Shown here piece by piece: positions 13,295 through 60,044 of a stretch of 64,000 nt of DNA (the first letter of the stretch is position 1; each line of letters starts with the position of its first letter). The DNA lies in NCBI RefSeq assembly GCF_900185015.1, contig NZ_FXYD01000004.1, forward strand, positions 1 through 64,000. Reading direction: 5' to 3'. The DNA comes from Octadecabacter ascidiaceicola. GTDB lineage: Bacteria; Pseudomonadota; Alphaproteobacteria; Rhodobacterales; Rhodobacteraceae. A program made the translations under genes and the position numbers. Below the pieces are notes generated by a model. It saw only the letters and a list, made by a program, of their open reading frames with translations. It had not been told where the DNA came from and searched no databases.

Positions 13295-13885
13295 ATGAAA
13301 CAACCCCGCGCATGGCAGCGCATGCTATCTGGCCGTCGCCTTGACCTGCTTGACCCGACACCGATGGACGTCGAAATCGAAGATATCGCGCATGGGCTTG
13401 CGTTCGTTGCCCGTTGGAACGGGCAAACAATGGGTGATTACGCTTACTCTGTCGCAGAACATTCCCTGTTGGTTGAACAAATCTTTGCAGCAATGAACCC
13501 CAAGACACCCGTTAAATGGCAATTAGCAGCCTTGCTGCACGACGCGCCGGAATACGTCATCGGCGACATGATTAGCCCGGTGAAAGCCGCCGTTGGCCCC
13601 GGTTACGAGACCCTCGATGACCGTCTTATGGCCGCGATCCACATCCGCTTTGGTCTTCCCGCCCAAGTACCTGTCGCGATCAAAAAACAGATAAAGAAGG
13701 CCGACAAGATAAGCGCATGGATGGAAGCCATCCAGATCGCAGGTTTTACTCGATCCGAGGCAGACAAGTTTTTTGGAAAGCCAGACCCTAACTTGGCCGA
13801 ACTCGTCCAAATTCGTCTTCGCGCTCCACTTGAAGTGCGCCGAGACTTCACCGCCCGACACAACGAATTATTGGCCCAATTATGA
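13295..13885 (+). CDS. HD-domain phosphohydrolase (YfbR-like)
   Basis: 196 residues. The metal-binding HD signature is visible as SVAEHSLLVEQ followed by ALLHDAPEYVIGDM and a later Asp in KKADKISAWMEA. Related proteins are 5'-deoxynucleotidases or other phosphohydrolases; the substrate cannot be told from sequence. It is divergent from ahcY across 108 bp and overlaps the next gene by four bases (ATGA), so the two are coupled. Confidence 0.85.
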   Translation: MKQPRAWQRMLSGRRLDLLDPTPMDVEIEDIAHGLAFVARWNGQTMGDYAYSVAEHSLLVEQIFAAMNPKTPVKWQLAALLHDAPEYVIGDMISPVKAAVGPGYETLDDRLMAAIHIRFGLPAQVPVAIKKQIKKADKISAWMEAIQIAGFTRSEADKFFGKPDPNLAELVQIRLRAPLEVRRDFTARHNELLAQL

Positions 13886-14355
13886 CCTTTGAAACCCGAA
13901 AAATGACTGCCGCTGATGTCCCTGCATGCGTCGCCATCCTGAACCCGATCATCGCCGCTGGAGGCACAACGGCCTATGAGGAACCATATACCGAAGCCTA
14001 CTTCCTCGATCACTACTGCAATGAACCGCCCGTCACTAACGTGGTGCTGCATGAAAGCACGGTCATCGGCTTCCAAGCCGCATTTGAGGTGGAACAGGGT
14101 CTATATTCCGTCGGAACCTTCACTGACCGCAACAACCCAATCCGCGGCGCAGGCGCGGCGCTCATGGCCAAAACCAAGGCCGACTGCCGCGCACGTGGTG
14201 GTAATGCCATCCTCGCCAAAATCACCGAAGACAACACCGGCGCTTTGGCCTTTTACTCCAAAATGGGGTTCGAAGATTTTGAGCTCGACAAAGCCGCGCT
14301 AACTCGCAAATCAGGCAAGGTGGTCGATAAGATAATTAAACGGTTTGAGCTTTGA
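13882..14355 (+). CDS. GNAT family N-acetyltransferase
   Basis: 157 residues, a single GNAT fold. The start MTFETRKMTAADVPACVAIL and the GAAEEPYTE-like pocket (TTAYEEPYTEAYF) resemble phosphinothricin-type acetyltransferases, but the acetyl-CoA pyrophosphate loop (RNNPIRGAGAALM) departs from the usual Q/RxxGxG/A, so substrate is open. The last third carries the NTGALAFYSKMGFEDFE motif typical of the family. Its start overlaps the HD hydrolase stop. A tandem 11-bp repeat element begins 22 bp after its stop. Confidence 0.85.
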   Translation: MTFETRKMTAADVPACVAILNPIIAAGGTTAYEEPYTEAYFLDHYCNEPPVTNVVLHESTVIGFQAAFEVEQGLYSVGTFTDRNNPIRGAGAALMAKTKADCRARGGNAILAKITEDNTGALAFYSKMGFEDFELDKAALTRKSGKVVDKIIKRFEL

Positions 14356-14377
14356 TCGCAAAAACGGGGTCTCAGCA

Positions 14378-14421
14378 ATACCAAACCCATACCCGAGCAA
14401 TACCGGACCCATATCGAGATT
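14378..14421. repeat. Four-unit 11-bp tandem repeat element, copy 1
   Basis: Units ATACCAAACCC, ATACCCGAGCA, ATACCGGACCC and ATATCGAGATT follow each other exactly every 11 bp. They lie between the convergent ends of the GNAT gene and regA. The same order of units recurs at 55926–55963 (units one to three match at 9, 8 and 10 of 11 positions), which argues for a shared element and not a chance repeat. Confidence 0.65.
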
Positions 14422-14427
14422 CTGCCC

Positions 14428-14973
14428 CTATCGCGGGCTGCGTTTCGCCAGAATTCGCTGCAACGTTCGGCGGTGCATGTTCAGGCGTCGCGCGGTCTCA
14501 GAGACATTCCGGTCACACAGTTCGTATACCCGCTGAATATGTTCCCAGCGAACCCGATCCGCACTCATTGGGTTTTCTGGCGGCGGCGGAAGCTCAGCAC
14601 CATTCGCCAACAGGGCATTCATAACGTCGGTCGCATCCGCTGGCTTAGATAAGTAATCTGTCGCACCAATCTTTACCGCTGCGACAGCCGTAGCAATCGC
14701 CCCATACCCCGTTAAGACAACAATCCGCGCCTCAGGGCGGTGCTCGCGTATGGTCTCGACGACATCAAGACCAGTGCCATCTTCAAGGCGCAGATCCACA
14801 ACGGCATAAGCTGGTGGGCGCGCTGTCGCGATTGCTTTACCCGCAACGACGCTATCCGCAGTTTCAACTGAGAACCCACGCTTCTCCATTGCCTTGGCGA
14901 GACGGCGCAAAAATGGTTCGTCATCGTCAACCAACAATAGGGACGCATCTTCTCCGATTGGTTCCAGATCCAT
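14428..14973 (-). CDS. regA: Redox response regulator RegA/PrrA/ActR
   Basis: 181 residues. The receiver domain has the acidic pocket DDD (16–18), the phospho-acceptor D60 in AVVDLRLEDG, and K110. A proline-rich hinge (PPPPENP, about 129–135) leads to a Fis-type helix-turn-helix (about 157–175, ending NMHRRTLQRILAKR). This is the standard RegA layout. RegA globally controls photosynthesis, respiration, carbon and nitrogen fixation genes in response to redox state. Its kinase regB is at 15744 on the opposite strand, with senC between them. Confidence 0.96.
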   Translation of the reverse strand: MDLEPIGEDASLLLVDDDEPFLRRLAKAMEKRGFSVETADSVVAGKAIATARPPAYAVVDLRLEDGTGLDVVETIREHRPEARIVVLTGYGAIATAVAAVKIGATDYLSKPADATDVMNALLANGAELPPPPENPMSADRVRWEHIQRVYELCDRNVSETARRLNMHRRTLQRILAKRSPR

Positions 14974-55193: not shown

Positions 55194-55895
55194 TTGGATG
55201 AAAAGGTCACAACACACACCGCAGAAGATGACCCCCGAAATCAGAGCATTCTGATCTGGGTGAATGGAACCCTCAAACCCCGTGCCGATACAACGGTCAG
55301 TGTTTACGACTCAGGCTTCATGCTCGGTGACGGCGTCTGGGAAGGCATGCGTTTGTATGACGGAACTTGGGCCTTCATGGACGAACATATGGACCGTCTT
55401 TTTGAGGCCGCGAAGGTAATCGACCTCGACATCGGCATGGACAAGAATGAAGTGATTTTGGCCTTGTTAGAGACACAAAGGGCCAATGAAATGGAAACTA
55501 CCGTCCATTGCCGCCTTATGATCACACGCGGCACCAAGGTTTTACCGTTCCAGCACCCGTCCCTTAGCCAAACGGGGCCAACGATGGTCATCATCATGGA
55601 GCACTCAAAGCCAAAGCTGCCGCGTCCCATCACCCTCGCGACGGTCCCGCACCAGCGCGGCTTACCGATAACGCAGGACCCGAAACTGAACTCCCACTCC
55701 AAGCTCAACTGCACCCTTGCCTGCATCGCTGCGCATAAGGCGGGCGCGGACGAGGCGTTTCTAAAGGGAACCTTTGGTGCGTAAACGCCGGTCAGCTCGA
55801 TCAACGGGCGTCAAATCGGAACCGGCGACATGGGCCCCGTAACACTTCGGCTACGTAATCTCTACAAAACACTTACCGAACAACAGGTTAACTGA
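55194..55895 (+). pseudogene. Class IV aminotransferase, internal deletion and nonsense codon
   Basis: The frame (TTG start at 55194 or further upstream) gives a normal N-terminal half with VNGTLKPRADTTVSVYDSGF and the PLP-lysine region KLNSHSKLNC, up to KAGADEA. It then jumps directly to FLKGTFGA, which in intact homologues follows a second GADEA about 85 residues later. So the middle of the large domain is missing. A TAA at 55782–55784 stands where homologues have Gln before TPV; the same frame continues TPVSSINGRQIGTGDMGPVT and ends at a TGA at 55893–55895. Without the deletion the gene would be of ordinary length (about 290 residues). It precedes the sulfotransferase-like gene. Confidence 0.85.
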
Positions 55896-55914
55896 TTCTT
55901 TAATAGGACGCCCA

Positions 55915-55963
55915 GTATCGTGCCCATATCAAAACCATACCCAACCCATACCGGAGCCATATC
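55915..55963. repeat. 11-bp tandem repeat element, copy 2, before the sulfotransferase-like gene
   Basis: Units GTATCGTGCCC, ATATCAAAACC, ATACCCAACCC, ATACCGGAGCC and ATATC are in exact 11-bp register and end immediately before the ATG at 55964. The GGAG inside the fourth unit, eight bases from the ATG, serves as ribosome-binding site. Compare 14378–14421. Confidence 0.65.
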
Positions 55964-56653
55964 ATGAAAATTGCCATGTGGTCCGGCCCTCGGAACCTCT
56001 CAACCGCGATGATGTACGCCTTCGGGAATCGCGCTGATTTTACCGCAATGGATGAACCGTTTCACGCCCCGTATCTGGCGAAAACCGGTCTGGATCACCC
56101 GATGATGGCCGAGATTCTTAGTGCCCATGATACGGACCCAAACAAGGTCGCGATTGCCTGTTCCGACGCGGGCGAAAAAACGCATAAGTATATGAAACAT
56201 ATGCCACATCATATGCTTGATGGCTTTCCACTCGACTGGACTTCGGACTGCGTAAACATCCACCTGATCCGCCATCCCGCCCGCGTGATCGCAAGCTATG
56301 CGGCGAAACGGGAAAACCCAACGCTGACGGATATCGGCTATCCGCAGCAAGTGGCTCTATATGATCGGATCGGCGGCATCGTCATCGACAGTCACGATAT
56401 TCGGCAAGACCCTGAAAACGATATTAAAAACCTATGTGAAACGATTGGATTACCGTTCGATCCGGCAATGCTGAACTGGCCCGTTGGCCCGCGATCTTTC
56501 GACGGAATCTGGGCATCCCATTGGTATGGTGCAGTTTACCAAAGCACAGGATTCGTTGGCGGCGAAGGACCGCGTCCAGAATTAGAAGGGGCGGCTGCCG
56601 ATCTGCTCGACGCCGCCCTTCCATATTACGAAAAACTGAAACCTTTCAGCTAG
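55964..56653 (+). CDS. Sulfotransferase-like P-loop protein
   Basis: 229 residues. The phosphosulfate-binding-like loop is WSGPRNLSTAMMYAFG at the N-terminus and a 3'-phosphate-binding-like motif is NIHLIRHPARVIASY. The family is a distinct sulfotransferase-like group often paired with a class IV aminotransferase; plant proteins fuse both domains. The substrate is unknown. Its partner gene upstream is broken here. It ends head to head with the argG stop. Confidence 0.75.
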   Translation: MKIAMWSGPRNLSTAMMYAFGNRADFTAMDEPFHAPYLAKTGLDHPMMAEILSAHDTDPNKVAIACSDAGEKTHKYMKHMPHHMLDGFPLDWTSDCVNIHLIRHPARVIASYAAKRENPTLTDIGYPQQVALYDRIGGIVIDSHDIRQDPENDIKNLCETIGLPFDPAMLNWPVGPRSFDGIWASHWYGAVYQSTGFVGGEGPRPELEGAAADLLDAALPYYEKLKPFS

Positions 56654-57925: not shown

Positions 57926-58366
57926 CTAGAGCAAGCTGGCCACGAACGCTGCATCGCCTTCGTTTGAAAGCAGGGCAGGGGCGTCGCGTATCGGAACCCA
58001 AATTGGCGTGTGCAGCTCTTCCGTTGGGAGGCCTAAACAACGCACCGGCCTTGACCAATAGATCGCGCAAACCTTTTCGGCCCAAAGGTCATAATCGGAC
58101 ATAAAAACAAAGCGTCTGTAAGCACCGATGCGCACAGGCCGGCCCATGGTCCAACCTGTTTCCTCCATCACTTCGCGGTGCAAAGCAGGCAGAACGTGCT
58201 CACCAGCGTCGATTCCACCTCCCGGAAGCTGTAGTTCGGGGTGTTCTAAGCGGTCGCCATCCTGTTCTGTCAGCAGCAAATTTTGCCCCCGTTGAAGGAT
58301 CACATAGGCCCCTGGCCGCAGCGTGTAACGCATAGCTGGGTCAACTCGTTCGCCGTAACGTCTCAT
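57926..58366 (-). CDS. NUDIX hydrolase
   Basis: 146 residues. The Nudix box runs GGGIDAGEHVLPALHREVMEE, with E residues in the REVMEETG core. ATG 58366 (MRRYGERVDPAMRYTL) is chosen because the longer frame to 58561 runs into the divergent hslO gene. Substrate unknown (ADP-sugar or nucleotide pyrophosphatase types are close). Confidence 0.85.
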   Translation of the reverse strand: MRRYGERVDPAMRYTLRPGAYVILQRGQNLLLTEQDGDRLEHPELQLPGGGIDAGEHVLPALHREVMEETGWTMGRPVRIGAYRRFVFMSDYDLWAEKVCAIYWSRPVRCLGLPTEELHTPIWVPIRDAPALLSNEGDAAFVASLL

Positions 58367-58441
58367 ATCGCCCCTTTTCCCCCGACTTGTGGCACCTATA
58401 TGGACGCGGTATGCCCATCCTCGACTTGTTAGGAAAGCCCC

Positions 58442-59452
58442 ATGACTAAAACCAAAACCACTGCGTCTACGATCGCTTGGGATGATACCGTCCTGCCGTT
58501 CCAGCTCGACCGTTCCGATATTCGCGGCCGCGTCGCGCGTCTTGATGGCGTTTTGGACCAAGTATTGTCACAGCACGACTACCCTCCGGCGGTTGAAGCG
58601 TTGGTGGCTGAAATGGCTTTGCTAACCGCACTTATCGGCCAGACCATTAAGCTGCGTTGGAAATTGTCGTTGCAAGTGCGCGGTGACGGTCCTGCGCGTC
58701 TTATCGCTACGGATTACTACGGCCCAACCGCTGACGGGAAGCCTGCCAGCATTCGCGCCTACGCGAGCTATGACAAAGATGAGATCGACCCAACGGGCGA
58801 CGGTTTCTCTCAGGTTGGCAAAGGTTACTTTGCGATTCTGATCGATCAGGGCGAGGGGAATACCCCGTATCAAGGTATCACACCGATCGCTGGTGGCTCC
58901 TTGGCGGCTTGTGCCGAAGCCTATTTCGCGCAGTCTGAACAATTGCCAACAGCGTTCCAGCTGACTTACGGCAAGGCGCAGGTTCCTGGTAGCGCTGAAT
59001 CGTGGCGTGCGGGTGGGATCATGATGCAGGCAATGCCGAAAGCGTCACCGTTGGCCAATCCGGATGGTGGAACAGATGAAGGTTTGACCGCGGTTGAAGA
59101 CCTGATGAACGACGATGAAGGTGAGAACTGGAACCGTGCGACCACGTTGATGCGGACTGCCGAAGAACTGGAACTGATCGGGCCGTCCGTTCAGCCAACC
59201 GAATTGCTGGTGCGCCTGTTCCACGAAGAAGAGCCGCGCGTGTTTGACCCGCAGCCAGTGAGCTTTGGCTGTTCGTGTTCGCCCGCAAAGGTCCGCCAAT
59301 CGTTGTCGATCTATTCCGCTCGCGACATCGGCCATATGACGACTGCCGAGGGTACAGTAACGGCAGATTGTCAGTTTTGTGGTGCGCATTACGTGTTCCA
59401 GCCAAACACGCTGGGGTTCGAGGCGACAGAAGGACCAGATGCAAAGCCATAA
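58442..59452 (+). CDS. hslO: Redox-regulated chaperone Hsp33
   Basis: 336 residues. The C-terminal zinc centre is CSC (C277, C279) and CQFC (C310, C313); oxidation releases zinc and activates holdase function. The N-terminal core has the family's VEALVAEMALLTALIGQTIK. It protects against oxidative heat stress. It overlaps the next gene by 14 bases. Confidence 0.94.
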   Translation: MTKTKTTASTIAWDDTVLPFQLDRSDIRGRVARLDGVLDQVLSQHDYPPAVEALVAEMALLTALIGQTIKLRWKLSLQVRGDGPARLIATDYYGPTADGKPASIRAYASYDKDEIDPTGDGFSQVGKGYFAILIDQGEGNTPYQGITPIAGGSLAACAEAYFAQSEQLPTAFQLTYGKAQVPGSAESWRAGGIMMQAMPKASPLANPDGGTDEGLTAVEDLMNDDEGENWNRATTLMRTAEELELIGPSVQPTELLVRLFHEEEPRVFDPQPVSFGCSCSPAKVRQSLSIYSARDIGHMTTAEGTVTADCQFCGAHYVFQPNTLGFEATEGPDAKP

Positions 59453-60044
59453 ACCTTGGATTGAAGATCTGAAAATGACGCTCTGCCGTACGATTGAAAA
59501 CGTGCGGCAGGCGTCCTCTGATTTTGATCTCAATTCAGGTGTCGTGTTGCCGAAAGGTAGGGTGTTGAAGCCCGCCGCGGTGTTGATCGCGATCACGGAG
59601 GCAGGGGAGGTTATCCTCACCAAACGCGCAGCCCATCTGAAGCACCACCCGGGGCAAATTGCGTTTGCCGGCGGGCGTATGGATGACACGGATACCGACC
59701 TAACACACACCGCGCTGCGCGAGGCACAAGAAGAAATCGGGCTCGACCCGTCTGTCGTTACGGTTCTTGGAAATCTCCCGTCGCATGAAACGGTGACCAG
59801 TTATTCGATCACACCGATCGTCGCGATGGTTCCAACGGGCCTTAAATTCACCCCCGAACCAGGCGAGGTAGACGAAGCGTTCACAGTGCCGTTGTCTCAC
59901 GTTCTGTCACCGTCAAATTACCGGATTGAAGGTCGTGTATGGCAGGGTCAAAAACGTTTCTACTACGCAGCCCCATACGGTCCGTATTACATCTGGGGCG
60001 CAACTGCGCGTATCTTGCGCGGGATGGCCGAGGCGTTCCAATGA
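59439..60044 (+). CDS. NUDIX CoA pyrophosphatase
   Basis: 201 residues. The CoA-pyrophosphatase-type sequence LKHHPGQIAFAGGRMD precedes the Nudix box (ALREAQEEIGLD). It resembles NUDT7/8 and E. coli YeaB/NudL. ATG 59439 lies within hslO; the longer frame from 59379 would overlap more. Coupled to the CCA enzyme by ATGA. Confidence 0.9.
   Translation: MQSHKPWIEDLKMTLCRTIENVRQASSDFDLNSGVVLPKGRVLKPAAVLIAITEAGEVILTKRAAHLKHHPGQIAFAGGRMDDTDTDLTHTALREAQEEIGLDPSVVTVLGNLPSHETVTSYSITPIVAMVPTGLKFTPEPGEVDEAFTVPLSHVLSPSNYRIEGRVWQGQKRFYYAAPYGPYYIWGATARILRGMAEAFQ

Follow-up and report, generated by a model that had tools for sequence, protein, structure and literature searches.

A family of polar four-unit, 11-bp direct-repeat arrays at conserved chromosomal sites in Octadecabacter and other Rhodobacteraceae

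We have found that two short repeats in a 64,000-nucleotide stretch of Octadecabacter ascidiaceicola DNA (the window) belong to a family of chromosomal arrays that share an architecture of four 11-bp units, a preferred strand with respect to replication, and sites that are kept between genomes while the word repeated at a site may be replaced. The preliminary description of this DNA, which had noticed the two repeats and their period, made a real observation and understated it. Our preferred reading, to which we would give a probability of roughly 0.45, is that the arrays are dispersed docking sites for a protein that binds DNA cooperatively and has a part in marking or organising the chromosome; we infer the protein, its cooperativity, a specificity that coevolves with the word and the chromosome-organising role from the form and placement of the arrays.

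Architecture of the arrays

Array 1 (14376..14415, + strand; CATAC word) consists of the units CAATACCAAAC / CCATACCCGAG / CAATACCGGAC, which start at 14376, 14387 and 14398, and a last core, CCATATC, at 14409-14415. It lies between convergent genes, namely, a GNAT-family acetyltransferase ORF upstream (13882..14355, +; Pfam PF00583) and a RegA-like response regulator ORF (14428..14973, -; Pfam Response_reg and a weak HTH_8). Array 2 (55924..55963, +; CATAC word) consists of CCATATCAAAA / CCATACCCAAC / CCATACCGGAG, starting at 55924, 55935 and 55946, and CCATATC at 55957-55963; the ATG at 55964 that directly follows is the start codon of a Sulfotransfer_5 ORF (55964..56653, +; Pfam PF19798). 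The ATAYC-led 11-mers in register, the convergent genes and the sulfotransferase-like gene had all been described correctly, and the full-unit bounds are 14376-14415 and 55924-55963. A stretch in register at 55913..55923 (+; CAGTATCGTGC), with 5/7 core positions, may be a weak fifth, leading unit of array 2; such units are present in other arrays. Just upstream of array 2, the class IV aminotransferase ORF at 55194-55784 covers profile positions 1-140 of 223 only and seems to be cut short at its C terminus or to carry a frameshift.

Five copies of the two-unit pattern ATAYCNNNNCCATAYC are present in the window, always inside arrays 1 and 2, and 100 dinucleotide shuffles gave none. In the whole genome, the 18-mer CCATACCGGACCCATACC, allowing up to 3 mismatches, gave 33 matches, against 4 for the reversed pattern. 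For looser first patterns based on ATAYC, the reversed-pattern controls were no lower than the matches (30 against 7; 20 against 19); these controls are uninformative because the reversed pattern reads CYATA at 11-bp spacing and matches the CCATA units themselves. In a family model that had both arrays among its building sequences, array 1 scored 54.2 bits (E 1.9e-14) and array 2 scored 46.9 bits (E 3.6e-12). The preliminary description had allowed that the two places might be chance similarities with no more copies and no conservation; a model search yielded 17 matches in this genome, and both further copies and conservation exist.

The consensus unit of the CATAC word is CCATACC-NNAC, in which the free dinucleotide is mostly AG, GG, AA or CG and the junction between units has a linked alternative, AG/CA in place of AC/CC; the core CAATACC is a frequent variant (57 of 257 units). 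This consensus is a direct repeat without dyad symmetry. The GTGCAC cores of a sister word are palindromic, yet their arrays are direct repeats as well.

Copy number was determined in 80 arrays. From seven genomes of the genus, 80 stretches were taken, 78 of which had an array by pattern, and the two window arrays complete the set. When a unit was counted if at least 5/7 core positions matched, 60 arrays had four units, 17 had five, two had three and one had six; nearly all of these loci were chosen for three units, so that smaller arrays were excluded by selection and only the upper end of this distribution is unselected. The fourth unit is not an artefact of selection, since the seeds had three units and the next core (6/7 positions) was tested at offsets 7 to 16: it was found at exactly 11 bp in 74 of 78 seeds and at offsets 7-10 or 12-16 in none. 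Trimmed to equal length, 75 arrays align over 56 columns (ungapped by construction). Beyond the array columns, the linker in front of the array and a short A/T-rich tail are the sole features to stand out; a TTT or AAA run is present just after the array (+40) at 76 of 102 loci, at the next step at 51 of 102, and at seven other offsets at 25-43 of 101-102 loci.

Neighbouring units tend to be different. In 49 of 75 arrays, no two of the three variable dinucleotides are the same, compared with 37.5 expected from column shuffles (P about 0.002). Among the matches listed, the 27 arrays of Puniceibacterium sediminis contain no adjacent pair with identical linkers (3.3 expected; P 0.018), and the 10 arrays of Pseudooctadecabacter jejudonensis contain one (3.8 expected; P 0.037). 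The unit order reported as common to the two window arrays does not extend to a general rule: the variable dinucleotides are mixed among arrays, and adjacent units tend to differ. Simple slippage, as in a minisatellite, was rejected as the origin of arrays in which four units prevail and adjacent units differ. A separate TATACGCCGAC repeat with identical units, at C10:4485-4522 of the same genome, is probably a minisatellite unrelated to the arrays.

Distribution, words and conserved sites

An initial search by pattern recovered three-unit arrays from 7 of the 19 genomes of the genus. A sequence model, R1, was then built from the 75 arrays, which therefore match by construction; at E 0.01, it matched 9 of the 19 genomes, with 35, 31, 31, 26, 17 (own genome), 16, 13, 6 and 4 matches. 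Two of these genomes, G005 (31 matches) and G013 (13 matches), had contributed nothing to the model, and their inspected arrays (ten and seven, respectively) carry the variant unit CCATACG-NNNN. Three genomes of the genus, G006, G010 and G014, gave no matches in the model search or in the search for the TRTAC word described below; with this patchy distribution across the family, the arrays are dispensable or replaceable.

In the family, the pattern CMATAYS-N4, repeated three times, matched 15 of 394 genomes (one with 144 overlapping matches), with four control matches in total, and the model alone at E 0.001 matched 10 of 295. On inspection, the single weak model matches of G028 and G172 were not four-unit arrays, that of G102 was one only in part, and the single CMATAYS match of G371 had identical units. 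A scan of named genomes yielded at least 120 stretches, of which at least 80 loci were listed; the matches listed include Octadecabacter, Pseudooctadecabacter, Puniceibacterium, Maritimibacter, Pararhodobacter, Marinosulfonomonas, Amylibacter, Xinfangfangia, Cognatishimia and other Rhodobacteraceae records. Matches in Lolliginicoccus, a Gemmatimonadetes MAG, a Prochlorococcus record and a Balneolales MAG were rejected as chance minisatellites, with identical neighbouring linkers in 8 of 8 pairs among the matches listed.

The same 11-bp form is found with other words. A second word, TGTAC (TATAC in G018), was searched for as TRTAC repeated three times and occurred in 11 of the 19 genomes of the genus, with one control match. 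The own genome (G000) is among them, so the two words coexist in it; its second-word sites are C2:861400, C2:1011521, C3:85366, C5:242795, C5:502565 and C7:227601, and one example reads TGTACAGGTTG TGTACGCATTG TGTAC. GTGYAC repeated three times matched 28 of the 394 family genomes, three of them with at least 50 matches, where palindromic cores count on both strands; there were three control matches. United, the CMATAYS and GTGYAC sets comprise up to 41 of 394 genomes, within which the single-match genomes G057, G246 and G371 may be chance. A 41-base composite array query gave no blastn match among the plasmids of PLSDB, a weak test for a word this degenerate, and the window gave no Rfam match at the gathering score. 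At the level of listings and abstracts, no description of such arrays was found in the open-licence literature.

Many sites are shared between genomes: 56 of 102 loci fall into 19 groups in which both flanks match in register. The sulfotransferase site recurs in another genus (G067), where CCATATC, CCATACG, CCATACG and CCATATC stand directly before the corresponding ATG with different linkers; the array that was assigned to this locus in G004 has another position nearby and, as far as seen, does not precede that ATG. For the site of array 1, the RegA-like ORF, which had a match at E 1e-40 or better in 30 of the 41 genomes compared, served as the anchor. CATAC arrays occupy this site in G000, G001, G004, G005 and G011, and TGTAC arrays occupy it in G002, G012, G016 and G017; one or two residual units are left in G003 and G008. 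In this comparison, which left out G010 and G014 of the genus, no array was visible by eye in G006, G007, G015 and G018 or in eight parsed genomes outside the genus. Upstream of serS, a TGTAC array in G009 (locus L462, followed by a start codon and the serS-like codons M-H-D-I) corresponds to CATAC arrays in G000, G013, G016 and G017.

Arrays also lie within coding sequence. The valS array reads AHTGPISDPYPTHI in the own genome, and by eye the equivalent codons spell other words elsewhere: TATAC in G018; GTGTAC in G003, G008 and G015; CCATACG in G005; GTGCACGCCCG units in G036; and TTTCATAACTC units in G019. Several of the 22 valS loci parsed (of 30; G016 and G017 left out) have no array. At the valS and regA sites that have no array, both length and sequence vary, with no duplication recognisable by eye. 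Another case is an array that covers the final codons of a cysG-like ORF. Different reading frames give different encoded peptides; because these coding arrays are read in different frames, it is the DNA rather than the peptide that is kept. The neighbours examined, namely, valS, regA, the cysG-like ORF, serS, argG, the acetyltransferase and the sulfotransferase, have no common theme. By the calls of a home-made codon-score gene caller, the genes flanking the 80 arrays are oriented ++ in 32 cases, +- in 18, -+ in 17 and -- in 13, and some arrays lie 0-40 bp before predicted starts.

Orientation and placement on the chromosome

All loci were oriented with the CATAC strand as the forward strand, and the GC skew was then determined. 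Negative GC skew marks the lagging strand, and the skew of the C-rich CATAC strand was negative in 73 of the 80 loci (about 5 kb each), irrespective of the flanking genes (30 of 32 ++, 12 of 13 --, 15 of 18 +- and 16 of 17 -+). After excision of the array and 150 bp on each side, the skew was negative at 92 of 102 loci from nine genomes and of opposite sign at 10. Orthologous arrays and arrays of one genome are not independent, and these raw counts overstate the polarity; with each orthologous site counted once, 61 of 65 sites (both-flank grouping) or 50 of 52 (one-flank grouping) were negative. The G-rich word therefore sits mostly on the leading strand.

This polarity extends beyond the genus. 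Among the matches listed in the named-genome scan, 70 of 76 Rhodobacteraceae arrays had negative skew, as did 49 of 53 outside Octadecabacter and Pseudooctadecabacter, of which 27 are from one species. The sister words agreed in polarity at 24 of 30 loci (3-kb loci, some listed twice). Orientable GTGTAC arrays, one of which is common to both sets, agreed in 13 of 16 cases; a further 13 arrays with palindromic GTGCAC cores, which cannot be oriented, were left out.

On a larger scale, the strand of the arrays follows the sign of the skew, with some exceptions. Ten of the 13 arrays sampled in G067 agree with the 20-kb skew; those at 2528 and 3224 kb oppose it, the one at 222 kb lies at the sign change, and a fourteenth (3266 kb) is outside the skew sample. 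Ten of the 11 arrays listed for G018 agree, the exception being at 2817 kb, and an additional mixed-word array at 615 kb opposes the skew direction. In G320, five of six arrays agree although the skew switches several times. On contig C7 of the own genome, which carries the window, the arrays are on the + strand at 14 and 56 kb and on the - strand at 117 kb; the three bin averages in the window are -0.045, -0.044 and -0.050, and beyond it the skew is positive in all nine samples between 64 and 420 kb and negative in the one at 438 kb. The skew turns from negative to positive near 59 kb (window about 58000-60000), a candidate for a replication origin or an inversion boundary. We do not claim a replication origin within the window: the DnaA boxes between 50 and 64 kb are scattered and have one mismatch each, this region has no AT-rich stretch, and no origin marker was present among the ten ORFs tested.

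In the two near-complete chromosomes, G018 and G067, the terminus as defined by skew falls within the longest arc that is free of arrays. For G018 (3.23-Mb contig), the sampled skew puts the origin near 0.2 Mb and the terminus near 1.3-1.45 Mb, and the 11 listed arrays leave 0.79-2.32 Mb empty (random P 0.018). In G067 (3.33-Mb contig), the skew switches near 0.22 and 1.4-1.65 Mb, and 14 arrays leave 0.65-2.03 Mb empty (random P 0.013). These data, from pattern-defined arrays and sampled skew in two chromosomes, are suggestive of array depletion around the terminus.

Other sequences were counted in 433 kb of DNA from G000 and G004. The word GGGNAGGG, which we take to be the KOPS word of Escherichia coli, was biased 44:13 toward the leading strand and is a candidate FtsK-orienting sequence separate from the arrays. 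Single units were rejected as KOPS-like words: GGTATGG had a mild strand bias of 30:14, with the arrays included in the count. GGTTAAC, possibly a CtrA-type half-site, recurs by eye near arrays (for example, at L026, L059 and L073) and had no strand bias (14:16).

Possible function and relation to known systems

The one-turn phase, the polarity, the fixed places and the lineage-specific spelling are read most simply as the mark of a cooperative, coevolving protein that senses direction. Such a protein would bind double-stranded DNA sequence specifically and head to tail, with one monomer (or dimer) per 11-bp unit; it would lie along a single helix face, with a unit for every turn and four units per site, and would sense the direction of replication. 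The idea of a protein array on one helix face, already raised in the preliminary description, fits the exact 11-bp spacing, the conserved core and the free linkers; the polarity with respect to replication and the lineage-specific words across the family lay outside what that description could show. Tens of fixed sites, sparse around the terminus, would most likely serve to mark or arrange the origin side of the chromosome and thereby control segregation or division, in a role akin to that of nucleoid-occlusion or other architecture sites; the terminus gap favours a part in the timing of division or segregation like that of nucleoid occlusion. Alternatively, the arrays may act as a directional boundary or a loader for chromosome-organising machines.

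The strongest competitor of the docking model is a mobile or selfish repeat. Such an element would be inserted whole, favouring one strand at the replication fork as elements that target single-stranded DNA do, and would then decay. The strong polarity, the arrays inside coding genes, the patchy distribution with two word classes in one genome, and the linkers that listed arrays of one genome share by eye would all suit such an element. However, the sequence beside the array shows no sign of a longer body or of terminal inverted repeats. Adjacent units resemble one another less than expected by chance, whereas recent tandem duplication would make them alike; the four minisatellites from unrelated phyla that fit the pattern have identical linkers (8 of 8 pairs among the matches listed). 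The conserved sites with replaced words also speak against it: sites are common to several species and another genus while the word at the site changes. We consider this explanation unlikely, and the mobile interspersed repeat, which had been the other option of the preliminary description, fits less well than the protein array.

A DNA-mechanics element would need no reader of the word. Phased, flexible pyrimidine-purine steps (YRYAC once per turn) could pin supercoils or form a preferred site for gyrase, SMC or topoisomerase, and by inspection CATAC, TATAC, TGTAC and TGCAC do share a YRYAC-type core in register; the A/T run at +40 (76 of 102 loci, against 25-51 of 101-102 at eight other offsets) is also in keeping with this. 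Mechanics alone, however, requires neither direction nor lineage-specific spelling, and the arrays are strongly polar with a word that is narrow within any one genome; we regard this explanation as distinctly unlikely. Very unlikely, in our view, is an ordinary transcription regulator with head-to-tail boxes of the PhoB/OmpR type that controls the adjacent genes. It would share the 11-bp direct-repeat geometry and would account for arrays shortly before predicted starts, but not for the mixed gene orientations, a polarity that is equal in all orientation classes, arrays inside valS and at the end of the cysG-like ORF, or neighbours without a common theme. C-rich Rho-utilisation sites that end upstream transcripts, to which a G-poor strand with YC dimers every 11 nucleotides might point, are hardly credible, given that both predicted neighbours lie on the opposite strand at 13 of 80 arrays, that 17 of 80 arrays lie between divergent genes, that the sister words are not C-rich and that Rfam had no match in the window. 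A G-quadruplex on the G strand seems improbable, as the frequent CAATACC variant interrupts the G-run.

It can be envisioned that the Rhodobacteraceae possess a chromosome-wide, replication-oriented address system: four-unit arrays that stay in place over long times and whose word (CCATACC, CCATACG, TATAC, GTGTAC or GTGCAC) is rewritten by lineage, with words that can coexist in one genome and a coevolving reader. Such a pair of word and reader would be a bacterial analogue of rapidly evolving centromere or PRDM9-type pairs. We put this forward tentatively. The arrays already supply candidate sites whose positions, direction and natural variants of the word are on record, and hence a route to the reader protein, and the replacement of words at conserved sites would be a natural experiment in which a DNA-binding protein coevolves with many sites at once. 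To our knowledge, few models are known to have polar marks dispersed over the chromosome.

For KOPS, nucleoid-occlusion operators, REP/BIME sequences, STRR, PhoB boxes and parC alike, the arrays lack at least one of the defining features tested. ParR/parC plasmid centromeres are 11-bp head-to-tail direct repeats that seed a protein array, and parC-type centromeres and iterons are found once in each replicon, next to par or rep genes. The arrays are likewise head-to-tail repeats of about one helical turn; however, they form many polar chromosomal sites, and the neighbours examined are unrelated. PhoB/OmpR-type boxes are also 11-bp head-to-tail direct repeats, like the arrays, in which the fourth core follows at 11 bp (74 of 78 loci), but the arrays occur in all gene orientations and inside coding sequence and are not oriented to promoters. 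STRR are heptamers of variable copy number. The arrays resemble them as short tandem repeats scattered through intergenic DNA and differ in having mostly four units (60 of 80), unlike adjacent units, orthologous sites and a biased orientation. Unlike REP/BIME or MITE sequences, the arrays show no apparent inverted repeat or palindrome in the aligned columns, where the linker in front and the A/T-rich tail are all that stands out beside the array.

Among systems that give the chromosome direction or position, KOPS are a G-rich word on the leading strand, far more numerous than tens per genome and denser toward the terminus. The G strand of the arrays is similarly the positive-skew strand at 92 of 102 loci; however, their density does not rise toward the terminus, whose arc is array free in G018 and G067. 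KOPS and AIMS are given as 8-bp words in the literature, whereas the arrays are 4x11 bp and number tens per genome. RefZ-binding motifs, a handful of palindromic sites, differ from the 4x11-bp polar arrays in form. In Bacillus, according to PMC6657595, they are chromosomal positional information that is read by a DNA-binding protein to tune division, and KOPS are oriented from origin to terminus on each chromosome arm (PMC2680272). Palindromic nucleoid-occlusion sites, as given in PMC4726725, number about 24-52 (SlmA SBS, E. coli) or about 70 (Noc NBS, B. subtilis) per chromosome and are unevenly spread. The arrays may resemble them as tens of dispersed sites (4-35 matches per positive genus genome) with a gap around the terminus in two chromosomes (P 0.018 and 0.013), but nucleoid-occlusion sites, being palindromic, are not polar, whereas the arrays are four direct repeats with a direction and a CATAC consensus that is not palindromic.
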